This document shows positions 2,601 to 35,986 of a DNA stretch of 35,986 bases, in pieces. The notes under the pieces were generated by a model. It saw nothing but the letters and a program-made list of their open reading frames with translations, was not told the origin of the DNA and did not search any database. Position 1 is the first letter of the stretch; the number at the start of each line of letters is the position of its first letter. Position numbers and translations under genes: made by a program. This DNA comes from Syntrophus aciditrophicus (GTDB lineage: Bacteria > Desulfobacterota > Syntrophia > Syntrophales > UBA8958). Location of the stretch: NCBI GenBank assembly GCA_020718905.1, contig DYRD01000020.1:1-35986 (forward strand), in the 5' to 3' direction.

Positions 2601-5600
2601 ATGAAAAAGATTATACGGCAGGCGATAAAGAGTCCCGATCCGGCCTGGGCAGATTTGCAGGAACGGATCGGTCGGGGGGAGAGGTCCATTCGGGTCCATG
2701 GCGTGGAAGGGGCGGCGAAGCCTCTTTTGATAGCCCTGCTGCACCAGCAAACCCCCCGGCCGCTGTTGATCATTACCCCTACGGAGAAGGAGGCGAAGCA
2801 GTGCTGCCGCGATCTTTCCTTTTTTGCCGGGGCCGGGAAGGTATTTCTCTACGCTCCCTGGGAGGTTGTCTCGACGGACCTTTTCGCCTGGCAACGGGAG
2901 GTGGAATTGTCGCGAAGCGAGGTTCTCTGCCGCCTTCTGGCCGAAGAACCCGTTCTGGCCGTTGCCCCCGTGAAGGCCCTACTCCAGAAAATACCTCCTA
3001 AAAAGACGGTTGCCGCTTATATCCGCCCCGTTGCCATGGGAGATTTCATCGACCGGGACGAATGGATTCTCCACTTGCTCCAAGGCGGATACCACCGCGT
3101 TTCCCTTGTGGAAGGGAAGGGGGAATTCGCCGTTCGCGGCCATGTCGTCGATCTCTTTCCCCCGACGGCAGCGCATCCCTTGCGCCTGGAGTTTATCGGC
3201 GACGAAATCGAATCCATCCGGCAATTCGACCCCGTATCTCAGCGATCAAAAATAGAGGTGGTCGAATTTCTATTGACGCCGGCAAGAGAAATCATCATGA
3301 CCGCGGAACGTCAAAGCCTCGGCATCCAGCACATCAAAGCCCGGGCCAACGACCTGGGACTGCCGCGCTTGATGAAGGACCGGCTGGTGGAGCGGCTGGC
3401 CAACGGCCTGACCATGTCCATCAACCCCCTGCTCCTCCCGCTCTTCTACGATGACGGGGAGCACCCCGGATTGCTCCTGGATTACTTTTCCTCCACGGGA
3501 TTGCTGATCTTTGACGATACCATGGCGATCGGATCTTCCCGGGAGAGTCTCGAGAACGAGATTGACCGGCTCCTCATGAAGGCCCACCAGGAGGAAAGGT
3601 TTTATCTGGAAAGGGAGGCCCACTACTGGACGGGCGACGTTCTCCCCGATTCCCCGGCGGGCTTCCAGAGCCTTCATTTCGACAATCTGGCCCTCGGTAT
3701 TCACCCCGATGGCGTGGCCTTTCATATATCGAACGATACGGGAGTCAAATCGGGACTTCAGGTGCAGGATGAGGCCGGAGAGATCCTTTTCCCCCTGGCC
3801 GAGCGGATCAGGGAATGGGTCGGGAATGCCTATCAGGTGTTTTTCCTCTGCAGCGGGTCCGAGGGCCGGCAACGCATGGTACAACTCTGCGCATCATATC
3901 GGCTCCCCTGTAATGTCCTCCCCGGGGATCATCCTTTTTTGGAGTTTTTTTCTCCGTCGGCGGGTCAGGGCTCCCTCGGCATTTGTGAAGGCAGGATCTC
4001 CGTCGGGTTTGTTTACGAGGCCCTGCGCCTCGTCCTGATTTCCGACGAAGAGATCTATGGGCAGAAGATCGCCATCCGGCGGGCGCGGCCCGTGCGGGAT
4101 GGATATTTCCTCAAATCTTTCGGGGAACTCAAGGAAGGGAACTACGTCGTCCACAAGGAACACGGCATCGGTCTGTACCGCGGCCTTCAGAAGCTTGCCG
4201 TGGAAAGCATGGAGAATGATTTTCTCCTCATTGAATATCTCGATGGGGACAAGCTTTATATCCCCGTGGATCGTCTGGATCAGATCCAGCGCTATTTGGG
4301 CCCCGAGGGGGCGGCGCCGAGAATAGACAAGCTCGGCGGGTCTTCCTGGGAGACGGTCAAGGAACGGGTGAAAAAGTCCATTCGCGATGTGGCGGAGGAA
4401 CTGATGGCCGTTTATACCGCCCGGGAGGTTATGGACCGCCAGTCCTTTTCACCGCCGGACCGGCTTTATAATGAATTCTGCGCCGCCTTCGAATACGAGG
4501 AAACCCCCGACCAGGCGCGGGCGATTGAAGACATCCATCTCGACATGAGCCGGACCAAACCCATGGATCGGCTGATTTGCGGCGACGCCGGCTTCGGGAA
4601 GACGGAAGTGGCGCTCCGGGCCTCGTTCCGGGCCGTGATGGAGGCCAAGCAGGTCGTGATCCTCGTGCCGACGACGATCCTGGCGGAGCAGCACTATCAG
4701 ACCTTTTCCCGGCGTTTCCGCGATTATCACGTCCGGGTGGAGGTCCTCAACCGCTTCCGGACCAAGGCCGAGCAGGTGAAGATCGTGGAAGGAATCAACA
4801 GGGGAACCGTGGACATCGTCGTCGGAACCCACCGTCTCCTCCAGAAGGATATTCGGTTCAAGGACCTCGGATTGGTCGTTATCGATGAGGAGCAGCGCTT
4901 TGGCGTGACTCACAAGGAAAAACTGAAGAAGCTCCGGACCCTCGTCGACGTCCTGACCCTGACGGCGACGCCGATTCCCCGGACCCTCCATCTCTCCCTC
5001 GTCGGCATTCGCGATTTGTCCATCATCAACACCCCGCCGGAAGACCGCCAGCCGATCAAAACTTATGTCCTCGAGTTCAACGAGGATATTATCAAAGAGG
5101 CGATCCACGGGGAACTGGACCGGCAGGGCCAGGTCTTCTTTCTCCATGACCGGGTCCGCTCCATTTACTCGATGGCCAGATTCATTGAAAAGCTCGTCCC
5201 CCGGGCCCGGGTGGGGGTGCTCCACGGGCAGATGAAGTCCGCCGAGATCGAAGCGACGATGGTGCGCTTTATCCAGAAAGAGGTCAATGTCCTGGTCTGT
5301 ACGACCATCATCGGCTCGGGAGTTGATATCCCCGCGGCCAACACCATGATCGTCAATCGCGCCGCCCGCTTCGGCCTTGCCCAGCTCTACCAGATCCGGG
5401 GCCGGGTGGGCCGGGCGAAGGAGGAAGCCCGGGCCTATCTCCTCGTTCCCAAAGGGGCCATGCTTTCCCGGGACGCCCAGAAACGCCTGCAGGTGATTAT
5501 GGAATTCTCGGACCCGGGATCGGGCTTTCGGATCGCCTCCAACGATCTCGAAATTCGTGGGGGCGGCAGCCTGCTCGGCATTTCCCAATCCGGCCATGTC

Positions 5601-31012: not shown

Positions 31013-31330
31013 TTAAGGTCTGGCGTGTAACCTTCTTCTTTTGGGAGGTTGTGCTGAAATTGTGATTATTTTTTCCTGCAATCTGTCCATGACCTCTATC
31101 CCGGCCCGCAAACTTTCAGGATAATGATGCGCATACCTCATGACCATGGATGTGTTCTTCCATCGTCCAAGCTTCTGAACAGTATAAAGATCAACCCCGT
31201 TCTGAACCAGCCGGGTCGCGAAAGTGTGACGTAGATCATGGAACCGTAACTTCGCAATCCCGGATTTTCGAACCACAATTTTGAAAGATTTGAAAAGCAC
31301 TGGGTTTGTCCGCCTGGTGTTATCTTTGTG
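31013..31330 (-). pseudogene. C-terminal fragment of a tyrosine recombinase (integrase)
   Basis: About 105 residues of a phage/island-type integrase remain. The C-terminal catalytic block has HDLRHTFATRLVQ (H-x-x-R), the LGRWKNTSMVMRYAH stretch with the tryptophan at the second histidine position, and the nucleophile tyrosine in MRYAHH. Everything N-terminal is missing: the first catalytic arginine, the core-binding domain and the arm-binding domain. The frame continues to 31441, but beyond about 31330 it reads the htpX fragment out of phase. The stop lies 21 bases from the tRNA-Leu 3' end, so this is the attachment-site end of a decayed island. It cannot be active. Confidence 0.85.
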
Positions 31331-31629
31331 CTTATTCCGGAGCGTTCGGCCTGACGCTTTACGGTATTTACAAGCCAGGCTTCGCCAAGATCGCGTGGCG
31401 TTGAGATGACTCGGGCACCTGTGATCCGTTTGGCGGTCCATTTCGACATCGCCAAGGATGTAAAGAACCCGCCAAAGCCGAAAACAACCACGAACACCAG
31501 CATGTTAGCCATATCCAGACCAAGCCCCTGTGCGTCCAGAATCCGATCTACCCCCATAATATTGAGAACAATGCTCAAAATCAGGATAACAGCCAGGTTG
31601 GTAAAGAGAAACAACACGATTCGCTTCAT
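31331..31629 (-). pseudogene. htpX: N-terminal fragment of heat-shock protease HtpX
   Basis: The first roughly 99 codons of htpX remain, with the usual opening of two membrane segments (about 5-25 and 40-60), FGFGGFFTSLAMSKW and EAWLVNTVKRQAERSGI, closely matching E. coli HtpX up to that point. Homology stops at the junction with the integrase fragment near 31330, before the HEXXH zinc protease site. The open frame runs on to 31138 in unrelated sequence. AGGAAGGAA lies just upstream of the ATG, so a short membrane peptide of about 163 residues might still be made. The protease itself is lost at this locus. Confidence 0.85.
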
Positions 31630-31773: not shown

Positions 31774-34182
31774 CTATTTCAATGGCCTGCCTGTAAAATC
31801 CAATGCCAGTGTTCTCCCTGGATCGAGATGGTGAAATCGGTCACCGCAGCATACGATCACCGGCGGCGCCTCGCACTGCCTCGATGCAACCATTAGAAAG
31901 TTTTGCGTCAGTGTAATATCGAGCCAGTTGCCTCTGTATTGAACAGCCATGGTGAGTCGCTTGAGTTCTTCAGGCATAACGGGATTGAAACAAATCTCAT
32001 CCTTTCTAAATTCAAGTCCTGTATAGCATCTCTGAATGATGTCCACGGTGCCGGCCATGGCTCCGGCATGAATGCCTTCGTGCGTTGTGTCGGCCTGAAT
32101 ATCCGATATATCGCTCTCCAGTGCTTCCCGGAAAATAGCCCAGGATCGGTGCCGATCCGATCTTGCGAGAACCCACGAATGGATCACGTTGCTTAATGTT
32201 GAGCCGTTTGATGTGCGATACAGGTAGTAATCGATGATATCAGGAATCGTGTCGGGTGAAAAATCGTATCCCATAGCAGTGAAGAGGTCGACCAATTCTT
32301 CAGCTGAAAAAAGATAAAATAACATCAGAACATCCGCCTGTTTGGATAATTTATACCGGTTAGGCGAGATTCCCTCCGCCTCCAGGATGCGATCGAGACG
32401 GCGGATGTCGCCGTATTTGGCGCGGTAAGCTTCCCAGTCGAATTCTTCCAACCTTTCATAACCTTCAAACTGGCTGATGATAATGTCATTATGGAAAGGC
32501 ACATACATCTTGCTTACAATGGACTGCCAATGTTCCACCTCGCTTTCAGCAAGATCCAGCATTTCCATGATCTCGTGCCGTCTTTGGGTTGTAATGATAT
32601 CCAGGCTCCTTGCAGCCGCCTGTAGAACCCAAGCTGCCATGACATTGGTGTAAGCGTTGTTATTCAATCCCGGTTCGGCAACGCCTGGATACCCGTCGTG
32701 ATATTCGTCCGGACCCATGACGCCGTGGATTTCAAAACGCCTTCGTTTATCGTTGTAACTCGTTAGGCTGGCAAATAACCTTGCGGTTTCAAGCATCATT
32801 TCAACCCCGTGTGACGATAGGAAGGCAACGTCATGGGTCGTCTTGAAATACTTCCATACGTTAAAAGCAATGGCCGCGCTTACATGGCGCTGCAAGTGGG
32901 TGTGGTCAGGATTCCATCTTCCCGATTTAGGGTTGAGGTGAAGTTCTTGGGTTTCTTCTCGGCCATTGCTGCCGCTTTGCCAGGGGAAAAGGGCGCCCTG
33001 AAGTCCCTGGCGGTTTGCCGCCAAACGTGCCTGGTACAGGCGGCGATATCGGTAGGGGAGCATTGATCGGTTCAATTCCGGGGCCCTAATGGCAAAAATT
33101 GGAAAAATAAACATTTCATCCCAAAAAATATGGCCGCGGTAGGCCTCCCCGTGCCATCCGCGGGCAGGAATGCCGATATCGCCGTCCATGGAATTCATAC
33201 TGACGGTCTGAAGGAGATGAAAGAGGTGCAGCCGCAGGATCATTTGGGTCCGTGTTTCGTTCTCCACAACTATATCGAAACGGGTCCAGAGATGTTTCCA
33301 GGCAACTCGATGGCTCTTTAGAGTATCTTCAAAACCGGCCGCATGTTTTACAGCATCGCATGCCTCCTGGCCGGCCTCTGAAACAGCCATATCTCGCGAT
33401 GAATAAAGCACCGCAATCTTCTCTATAACAACCGGTCGGCCCTCCTCCACATCGAATCCAAGGTCGTCGGCAATGAAGCCTTCGTCTGCTACAAGCCTTC
33501 GCTCGGCCATTTGCGCCTCGCCGTTAACAAGAACCCTGGTTCTTACCGCTTCGGCAATTCGCAGATGAGACTGACGGGTTTTACAGATCATGTAAAGCCC
33601 TTCCACGCCTGTACGGCCCGTCTCCAGCGGTTCGAGATGCCGGCTGTTGAGTTGCCTGTAGCGCTTAACCCCAGCGTTGATGACCATCCCATCGATGGCA
33701 CTACGGCATTGAAGCCGTCCGGACCAGTTCTGCGGTATGATGGTCATTCTCATGGCTGCGATATGCTTTTCGGCCATGCTGACCAACCGCTTTTGGACGA
33801 TTTTCGTTTCCCTTCCCTGCCGATCCCGGGACAGGATCTCCCGGCTCAGGAGACCATCCCGGAGATTGAGTTCCTGTCGGTAAGACAAGATGTCTGTATG
33901 TGCTGTATTGAACCATTCGCCGCCTTCCGGTCTCCACATCAGTAAGAGATAGTTGGGAATATTGACCAGGTCTTCATTTTCGACAACACGGTCGGCGATC
34001 TCCGTTTTCAGTCTGTTGTAACCGCCCGCCAGATAAGTCCCGGGATAGTGAATTGCATCTGCCTGAGACTCTATGGCCGCGCCCCGCGTGGCGAAATATC
34101 CGTTGCCCAAGGTGCATAAAGCCTCCCGAAGGCCTTCTCCGGCAGGGTCGAAATGTTCGTAAACGAGCGACCATTTATTCAT
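31774..34182 (-). CDS. Glycoside hydrolase family 65 protein (likely trehalose/alpha-glucoside phosphorylase)
   Basis: GH65 enzymes mostly split trehalose, maltose or kojibiose with phosphate, giving beta-glucose-1-phosphate. The 802-residue protein has an N-terminal beta-sandwich (about 10-265), a linker, an (alpha/alpha)6 barrel (about 315-690) and a small C-terminal domain. The general acid is E493 in HGVMGPDEYHDGY; GHIFWDEMFIFP and NNNAYTNVMAAWVL are family stretches. The loop that usually reads H-G/D/E-S-S-L-S is NGSTLS here (N659). ATG 34182 has AGGAGG five bases upstream and overlaps the previous stop by 8 bases. Together with that gene, a trehalose substrate is likely but not shown; hydrolase activity is possible. 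Confidence 0.85.
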   Translation of the reverse strand: MNKWSLVYEHFDPAGEGLREALCTLGNGYFATRGAAIESQADAIHYPGTYLAGGYNRLKTEIADRVVENEDLVNIPNYLLLMWRPEGGEWFNTAHTDILSYRQELNLRDGLLSREILSRDRQGRETKIVQKRLVSMAEKHIAAMRMTIIPQNWSGRLQCRSAIDGMVINAGVKRYRQLNSRHLEPLETGRTGVEGLYMICKTRQSHLRIAEAVRTRVLVNGEAQMAERRLVADEGFIADDLGFDVEEGRPVVIEKIAVLYSSRDMAVSEAGQEACDAVKHAAGFEDTLKSHRVAWKHLWTRFDIVVENETRTQMILRLHLFHLLQTVSMNSMDGDIGIPARGWHGEAYRGHIFWDEMFIFPIFAIRAPELNRSMLPYRYRRLYQARLAANRQGLQGALFPWQSGSNGREETQELHLNPKSGRWNPDHTHLQRHVSAAIAFNVWKYFKTTHDVAFLSSHGVEMMLETARLFASLTSYNDKRRRFEIHGVMGPDEYHDGYPGVAEPGLNNNAYTNVMAAWVLQAAARSLDIITTQRRHEIMEMLDLAESEVEHWQSIVSKMYVPFHNDIIISQFEGYERLEEFDWEAYRAKYGDIRRLDRILEAEGISPNRYKLSKQADVLMLFYLFSAEELVDLFTAMGYDFSPDTIPDIIDYYLYRTSNGSTLSNVIHSWVLARSDRHRSWAIFREALESDISDIQADTTHEGIHAGAMAGTVDIIQRCYTGLEFRKDEICFNPVMPEELKRLTMAVQYRGNWLDITLTQNFLMVASRQCEAPPVIVCCGDRFHHLDPGRTLALDFTGRPLK

Positions 34183-35791
34183 GGACACCTCCTACATGCT
34201 CAGCAAGTAACAGGATAAATCGGCGTACTTCTTCGCAACTTTTCAGACAATACCTCGCCGCCGTCGGAAAAGGACGATCCCAAACGACAATCCCGCAACC
34301 CTTATTTATGAGTGCCCGGAAAGCATCTTCATCCGTCACATCATCGCCGATATAAAACGGCAAGATCTCGTCGTCGTCCAACTTCATCGCTTTCAGCACA
34401 AACTGGAGCGCTTTTCCCTTGTGCCAGTCCATAGCCGGCTGCAGTTCAAAGACTTTATTGCCGTATGCCTTGCGAAGTTCGCCGTATTTTGACGCGACCT
34501 CGTCCACGGCAGCTTCAACCGCCGGCACCCGGCCAGGATCGACCAGCCGATAGTGGATCGCGATGCCGAATTTCTTTCGCTCCACCAGACTCCCTTCTAT
34601 CGGTGAAATTTTGTCCCGAATTTCCTGTTCCGCTTTATCGATAATGGGCAGAAACGCCAAAGCCTCGCTGTTTTCAGGTTGTAAATGAACAGGTCCCGCA
34701 ATCTCGAAACCGTTACTTCCCGCATAAATAAGGCCCTCGATGCCCACCAGGCAGCGGATATCGGCAAGACCTCGGCCACTGATGATTCCGACCACACAGC
34801 TCCGGTTCAGGGCCAACAGGGCCGACCGCATACTTTCTCCCAAAACCGCTTTATCGGGGGTTTCAACAATCGGGGTTAAGGTCCCGTCATAGTCGAGAAA
34901 GACCGCCGGACGCCTCCCGTTTAAGCCCTTTTCTATCTGCATGAAGTTATCGATAGCCGATGGCAGTTCTTTCGGCCTCACCACTGCATTGGTGTCGTTA
35001 ATCTTTATTTCGATCTCAGAGAGATCATCAACGGCCACATGTGCGCCGTGGCTCAGGAGCACCTGTTTTTCCCCTTTCCTCGAAACGCCGACCACCAAAG
35101 CAAAACCACCCGCCCTGGCCGCCGCAATGCCTGCCACAGCATCCTCAACAACGATGGTGCGCGACGGATCAACACCGAGCTGACGGTTGGCTTCCAGAAA
35201 GATATCCGGGGCAGGTTTGCCCGAAAGACCCAATTTAGCCGCATCAACGCCATCTACGCGAACATCAAATAATTCCGGAATTCCGGCCCGTTCGAGAATC
35301 AACGCACAATTCCTGCTCGCTGAGATAACTGCGGTTTTGATGCCCAACGTCTTTACTTGACGGACAAAATCCAGTGTCGTCGGATAAGGTTCTACACCGT
35401 CCTCACTCAGAATCTGAAGGAAGAGACGGTTTTTCATGTTCCCGATGGCGTGTATGGAATCCAGACCCGGCCTCTCATCCGGGTTCCCCTCGGGCAGGCT
35501 CATCCCCCTTGACTGCAAAAAACTTCTGATCCCATCTTCGCGGGTTTTTCCGTCTACGTACAACTTGTAGTCCCGAACGATATCAAATAATCTGATGGTA
35601 GCGGTCTTTTCTCCCGCCTTCCTGGTTAAAAACCTGTCAAAGGTATTTTTCCATACCGCCGCATGAACGCTTGCCGTTTTCGTGATGACGCCGTCGAGAT
35701 CGAAAATCACCGCATCGATATTTTTAACTTCAATTCCTATTTTGTTTCCCTGTGATTCCGCATCGTTATAGCTTTTTTCCTTTCCCGCCAC
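34175..35791 (-). CDS. Beta-phosphoglucomutase-like HAD domain fused to trehalose-6-phosphate phosphatase
   Basis: Two HAD phosphotransferases are joined in 538 residues. Residues about 24-265 are of beta-phosphoglucomutase type: nucleophile D31 and acid D33 in FDLDGVI, VISASRN, the lysine in GKPAPDIF, and VVEDAVAGIAAA. Residues about 290-535 are an OtsB-type phosphatase: D300/D302 in FLDYDGTLTPI, IISGRG, and YIGDDVTDEDAF. Both active sites look intact. The start is a GTG with no good ribosome binding site; the frame stays open upstream without any ATG, so the 5' end is uncertain. The domain order HAD-OtsB followed by GH65 equals mycobacterial OtsB1 split in two. Confidence 0.88.
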   Translation of the reverse strand: MAGKEKSYNDAESQGNKIGIEVKNIDAVIFDLDGVITKTASVHAAVWKNTFDRFLTRKAGEKTATIRLFDIVRDYKLYVDGKTREDGIRSFLQSRGMSLPEGNPDERPGLDSIHAIGNMKNRLFLQILSEDGVEPYPTTLDFVRQVKTLGIKTAVISASRNCALILERAGIPELFDVRVDGVDAAKLGLSGKPAPDIFLEANRQLGVDPSRTIVVEDAVAGIAAARAGGFALVVGVSRKGEKQVLLSHGAHVAVDDLSEIEIKINDTNAVVRPKELPSAIDNFMQIEKGLNGRRPAVFLDYDGTLTPIVETPDKAVLGESMRSALLALNRSCVVGIISGRGLADIRCLVGIEGLIYAGSNGFEIAGPVHLQPENSEALAFLPIIDKAEQEIRDKISPIEGSLVERKKFGIAIHYRLVDPGRVPAVEAAVDEVASKYGELRKAYGNKVFELQPAMDWHKGKALQFVLKAMKLDDDEILPFYIGDDVTDEDAFRALINKGCGIVVWDRPFPTAARYCLKSCEEVRRFILLLAEHVGGVHE

Positions 35792-35869
35792 AAAACGGCC
35801 GATGCTGTCATCGCCGACCGAAGCGACGCCGGTATCCGATAACGTAAAATATTTTTCACTTTTTTGAGT

Positions 35870-35946
35870 AGCACGGCAGTGCTTTTTCGAGATAAGAACT
35901 TAGTTGGCCAACATAGTTCAAATTTTGAAAGGAGGACACTGCCGTG
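35870..35946. repeat. Nested 76-base inverted repeat containing a gene start
   Basis: Outer arms CACGGCAGTG (35872-35881) and CACTGCCGTG (35937-35946) are perfect complements. Between them lies a 24-base dyad with GAACT/AGTTC ends and a GTTGGCCAAC core (35896-35919), sharing nearly the same centre. The left arm alone also forms AGCAC-GGCA-GTGCT followed by TTTT, a small terminator-like hairpin on the plus strand. The right arm includes the GTG start of the next gene, and its AAAGGAGG ribosome binding site lies between the arms. The layout resembles the end of an insertion sequence or an autoregulated operator. Confidence 0.7.
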
Positions 35947-35986
35947 GAGAGAGATTGTACACAGGAACGGGAAAAAGTCATCCAAA
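35944..35986 (+). CDS. Start of an unidentified rightward gene (truncated by window edge)
   Basis: Only 14 codons are inside the window, beginning GTG with the peptide VERDCTQEREKVIQ. The call rests on a strong ribosome binding site, AAAGGAGG at 35928-35935, placed 8 bases before GTG. The start codon sits in the arm of an inverted repeat. A charged N-terminus of this kind is compatible with a small DNA-binding or transposase protein, but the visible part is too short to name. Confidence 0.5.
   Translation, partial: MERDCTQEREKVIQ

Follow-up and report, generated by a model that had tools for sequence, protein, structure and literature searches.

By its sequence, the end of the window (the whole stretch of DNA analysed, 35,986 nucleotides) is the left end of an IS256-family (Mutator-type) insertion sequence, and the leader of its transposase gene forms a predicted hairpin over the start codon. 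The hairpin is real and conserved, and the mobile element that carries it is of an ordinary kind. What the analysis demonstrates is the sequence itself, the existence of copies of the element, arms that are conserved and co-vary, and a predicted fold. It is considered rather probable that the hairpin of the transposase mRNA leader is a translational lock on sense transcripts that start at or outside the left end. An arm just inside the terminal repeat would pair with the start codon and the bases preceding it, with the Shine-Dalgarno (SD) sequence held in the same stem. Transcripts from at or outside the left end, including read-through from neighbouring genes, would carry both arms and would be poorly translated; a transcript begun between the arms would escape the fold. 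Folding in the cell, repression of translation and the escape route are the parts of this lock that we infer.

The element and its leader hairpin

The transposase frame of the window (35944-35986, forward strand) is cut by the contig end at 35986 after its first 14 codons, 13 of which are identical to those of a copy on contig C200 of the same genome. The C200 copy (L005) has 87% DNA identity to the window stretch, and its protein belongs to the IS256 family (Pfam Transposase_mut, 1.8e-96; NCBIfam IS256, 2.3e-94). It is the most complete copy in the genome, with a transposase that is broken by an internal TAA stop at 2852. Further pieces are a truncated 5' piece on C221 and a solo left end at C200:4648; right ends are present on C200, C117 and C76, and transposase sequence on C200 and C117. 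The transposase gene proposed in the earlier note is thus borne out, as the frame encodes a mobile-element protein with related copies or fragments elsewhere in the genome.

Many relatives have 8-bp target duplications directly outside their ends, which fix their boundaries. Alignment with these ends places the left terminal inverted repeat (bp 1-22, GATAACGTAAAATATTTTTCAC) at 35838-35859 on the forward strand. The right end of the window copy lies beyond the contig. The right ends on C117, C76 and C200 were considered as candidates for it and rejected, being without its flank: the 8 bp before 35838 are not matched by the sequences flanking the right ends on C117 and C76. Positions 1-650 of C117 (L013), at the contig start, hold the 3' half of a transposase copy, which may belong to another copy since its right flank mismatches the 8 bp before the left end in the window. 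On C221 (L006), an almost perfect palindrome (about 4207-4252; each arm some 23 bp long) lies just left of the truncated copy, and positions 4308-4345 form a hybrid terminus, right-end-like in its outer end and left-end-like in its inner part. In the window, the left end sits 46 bp upstream of the start of an open reading frame on the reverse strand (34175-35791), which we assume resembles a HAD phosphatase/trehalose-phosphatase fusion. The end of another reverse-strand frame (31013-31441) presumably resembles, by its motif, the C-terminus of a tyrosine recombinase.

The left arm of the hairpin, CACGGCAGTG (35872-35881, forward strand), and its right arm, CACTGCCGTG (35937-35946, forward strand), are 100% complementary over 10 bp and are spaced by 55 nt, as the earlier note had reported. 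The enclosed part (35882-35936, forward strand) is largely paired in the predicted RNA fold. Its inner 24-base dyad (35885-35908/35907-35930), also described in that note, is real but imperfect, with a complementarity of only 75%. The final three bases of the right arm (35944-35946) are the GTG start codon. The SD sequence AGGAGG (35930-35935, forward strand) is enclosed by the arms, 8 nt 5' of the GTG, with most of its bases paired in the predicted fold. The start codon is therefore in the stem and the ribosome-binding site (RBS) in the enclosed part, as had been claimed.

The folding proposed earlier was carried out with the RNA from 35860 to 35955. A free energy of -34.2 kcal/mol was predicted, versus -18.2 kcal/mol (s.d. 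3.0) for 200 dinucleotide shuffles (z=-5.3), none of which matched it. When the RNA was begun at 35898, past the left arm, only -5.8 kcal/mol remained, weaker than the average shuffle. A small terminator-like hairpin at the left arm had also been proposed to block transcription from outside. It had to be given up: its energy is only -6.1 kcal/mol and is equalled by 18 of 200 shuffles, it was not flagged in a terminator scan, and its T-run is not kept in relatives. A gathering-score search of Rfam with 14 IS-bearing loci (the window not among them) matched only three tRNAs.

Conservation and co-variation of the arms

The leader sample consisted of 80 loci of 60-89% identity, the C200 copy, one further relative and the window. 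Five loci without a start codon were dropped, and 72 unique leaders were folded. A similarity cut at 85%, by which the window and its near-copies fell out, left 52 representative leaders, 38 of them long and 14 compact; the transposase tree was built from 51 proteins.

An inverted repeat over the RBS or the start codon is kept in relatives of many phyla despite sequence change. Better folding than in 95% of shuffles of the loop part was found for 50 of the 72 unique leaders, against 2 of 25 control genes flanking the elements. The pairing of the SD and start codon alone proved a poor measure and was discarded (16 of 72 leaders beat their shuffles; mean 0.69 versus 0.58). Arms were then swapped between the 52 dissimilar leaders. 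With their own arms the leaders reached -21.6 kcal/mol, versus -13.8 kcal/mol with permuted arms, and none of 20,000 permutations was as low, in a comparison that, like the shuffles, treats related elements as exchangeable. Divided by class, the long leaders (n=38) gave z=-15.6; no element-specific pairing was detected in the compact ones (n=14, z=-1.2), many of which have a similar anti-SD arm. Cutting the leader 48 nt before the start made the SD and start codon more accessible in 34 of the 38 long leaders. The arms are thus conserved between homologous copies, where the earlier note had named their divergence as a ground for dropping its model.

The same design, with a different sequence, is found in leaders of distant IS256-family members. 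A copy in a staphylococcal phage record, which we take from its ends to be IS256 itself, has a similar predicted leader fold. Among 16 further IS256-family leaders from a family search, 10 fold similarly and 6 are not significant. The fold was not significant in the distant members L101, L105 and L120, and none was found in the leader of Lactobacillus phage JNU_P1 (L133, p=0.96); some of the non-significant distant leaders probably reflect a wrong start codon.

In 27 of the 52 representative leaders, every base of the start codon pairs with the left part. Among the long leaders the count is 21 of 38, versus 12.3 expected from chimeras. GTG starts pair through CAC and ATG starts through CAT, in separate lineages. 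GTG occurs in several separate places of the transposase tree, namely the window's clade, the L041/L063 pair, L035, L042 and L047; it is not fully paired in L042 and weakly paired in L047. In a clostridial-type clade of 15 leaders, which was chosen visually and which the tree then bore out as one side of a branch, the helix AGACATAG/CTATGTCT covers the start codon and the second codon. Its positions are 92.5% paired, versus 21-46% in slid registers, and 13 cells are changed on both sides, a number reached by none of 500 shuffles. This putative start-codon helix has compensatory changes. Pairing of the outer helix reaches 95% in the window's clade, where the one compensatory pair is a change from C-G to U-A that affects the first start-codon base of an ATG-starting relative. 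A single such pair was reached by 51 of 500 shuffles; the pair count is uninformative in this (delta) clade because the sequences are too conserved.

The arms could instead form a DNA operator, an alternative already named in the earlier note, the transposase binding the inner ends of the element and a third copy of the site, at the start codon, shutting its gene. That the arms remain Watson-Crick, with no excess of wobbles, is consistent with such a site, and GGCAGTG recurs in the right end of the element in the window's clade. Four members of this clade have a right end: in L005 and L017 its pairing with the start region equals that of the left end, and in L018 and L019 it is weaker. Because the right end shares GGCAGTG there, the operator reading is strongest in the window's own clade. 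Across 44 elements, however, the start region is matched far more closely by the left end, which is the better partner in 37; the right end is the better one in 5. When the right-end sequence was substituted for the left arm in the swap test, z fell from -15.6 to -3.9. In the clostridial-type clade, the arm segment pairing with the start codon is missing from the right end; in every clade, the right arm is placed over the SD or the start codon. The operator is considered unlikely.

The arms might also match without having a function, as by-products of template switching that homogenises terminal repeats and quasi-palindromes. The two ends of the element do share inner sequence, and the absence of a wobble excess would fit here too. 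Such a process is very improbable as the explanation, given that the position of the right arm, over the RBS or start codon, is constant across phyla and that the flanking genes do not show the effect.

Predicted promoters inside, outside and opposite the hairpin

Promoters of the sigma-70 type were scored with weights that are E. coli frequencies, and on this scale no such promoter was found between the arms of the window copy (p=0.975). A significant one, with its -35 at the left arm, is carried by 10 of 12 leaders of the clostridial-type clade. There the -35 box occupies the same bases as the pairing with the start codon, and transcription would begin between the arms, some 30-37 nt ahead of the codon. 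Among the long leaders outside this clade, an internal promoter of this kind was found in 5 of 26 only. Escape from the fold by a transcript begun within the repeat, as suggested earlier, is thus supported for the clostridial-type clade and not for the window copy. The fold-back model as a whole gains support from the co-variation of the arms across phyla, and in the window it is without the internal promoter that would go with it.

On the opposite strand, a promoter-like site was found near the start codon. With antisense starts from -3 to +7, the score exceeds that of synonymous-codon controls in 17 of the 52 representative leaders (p<=0.05), and at other offsets in 1-4 of 52. In the window, the predicted site (ATGACT, 16 nt, TACAAT; 35954-35981, reverse strand) would give an RNA that begins about the start codon and runs through the hairpin. 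For IS256, an antisense RNA at the first start site has experimental support (PMC10266640). The dyad could then mainly serve this antisense RNA, which would start at the start codon, cross the dyad, fold into an RNA-OUT-like hairpin and pair with the transposase mRNA. The dyad shows no strand preference. Wobbles were of the sense type in 34 cases and of the antisense type in 37, and among 38 leaders the sense fold was the more stable in 18 and the antisense fold in 18. Both tests being neutral, they give no support to the sense-RNA reading over its rivals. In the window, on the other hand, the sense fold is the stronger (-34.2 versus -25.7 kcal/mol), the pairing of the left arm with the start codon would be unneeded for an antisense RNA, and no terminator for it was seen. 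An antisense RNA as the main purpose of the dyad is considered unlikely, though an antisense stem and an operator might also coexist, and the translational lock is retained as the preferred reading.

The lock has to be reconciled with transcription from the circular form of the element. In ISCth4, a -10 hexamer in the left end and a -35 hexamer in the right end form a promoter at the circle junction, as described in the accessible text (PMC7780238). TTGACA, or a hexamer one mismatch from it, is present at bp 11-6 of the right end in 41 of 44 elements, and five or six positions of TATAAT are matched at bp 8-13 of the left end in 23 of 44. In the window this hexamer is TAAAAT (35845-35850, forward strand), in the same position as the -10 half in ISCth4 as given in the excerpt (PMC7780238). 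By their sequence, the end hexamers of the IS256-family relatives are the circle-junction promoter as outlined for ISCth4 (PMC7780238). Transcription from it would begin before the left arm is reached, at around bp 20 of the left end, and by geometry its transcript would also carry the lock. This counts against the lock, as it would be odd if that promoter were meant to raise the transposase. A wider scheme is put forward tentatively, with some doubt: a lock on outside transcripts and on the strong circle-junction ones might be used throughout the IS256 family, the transposase being made mainly from the internal promoter and the antisense RNA completing the switch.

Relation to known systems

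The transposases of IS10 and IS50 are subject to fold-back inhibition, in which the translation start of outside transcripts is concealed by an inverted repeat close to the left end. The element in the window resembles them in this hiding of the start, here on the basis of the predicted fold and its conservation. It differs in that its transposase is of another family, the start codon itself is in the stem, the window copy has no visible internal promoter, and the junction promoter lies outside the hairpin. The layout of IS10 is matched by the clostridial-type clade, where the start of the internal promoter falls between the arms.

Other elements also occlude the RBS. In the IS200 leader this is done by a stem-loop, and a terminator hairpin acts on impinging transcripts, according to the portion of the report available (PMC3196728). 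The occlusion is alike; the transposase is unrelated, and the window has no strong terminator. In ISPpu9, the RBS is buried by the fold of the leader, expression rose 26-fold with mutations weakening this fold, and an antisense RNA opens it (PMC8450116). That leader buries the RBS as the one in the window would, but it belongs to a different element and is antisense-opened, and it is likened here by its description only (PMC8450116). The closest relatives in the literature, IS256 and ISCth4, share with the window the transposase family, the 8-bp target duplications (in relatives) and the split circle-junction promoter (PMC7780238, PMC10266640). IS256 itself is alike in its predicted leader fold and in the antisense RNA at its first start site, the latter as reported in the part available (PMC10266640). 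They differ in that the published descriptions, in the portions accessible, give no leader hairpin at the start codon (PMC7780238, PMC10266640).

A search of the open-access literature found nothing on a leader hairpin in the IS256 family. Other families are known to hide the start on the same principle. Within the literature that could be searched, what looks new is the use of this principle throughout the IS256-type elements, the locking of the start codon itself and the clash with the circle-junction promoter. Elements of the IS256 type occur widely, and IS256 itself is of clinical importance. That the predicted fold is kept across phyla despite sequence change suggests a built-in brake on jumping. 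It raises the question of how the circle-junction promoter yields transposase when its transcript would bear the lock. If the lock is true, it would explain how IS256-type elements can sit in transcribed DNA without being switched on.
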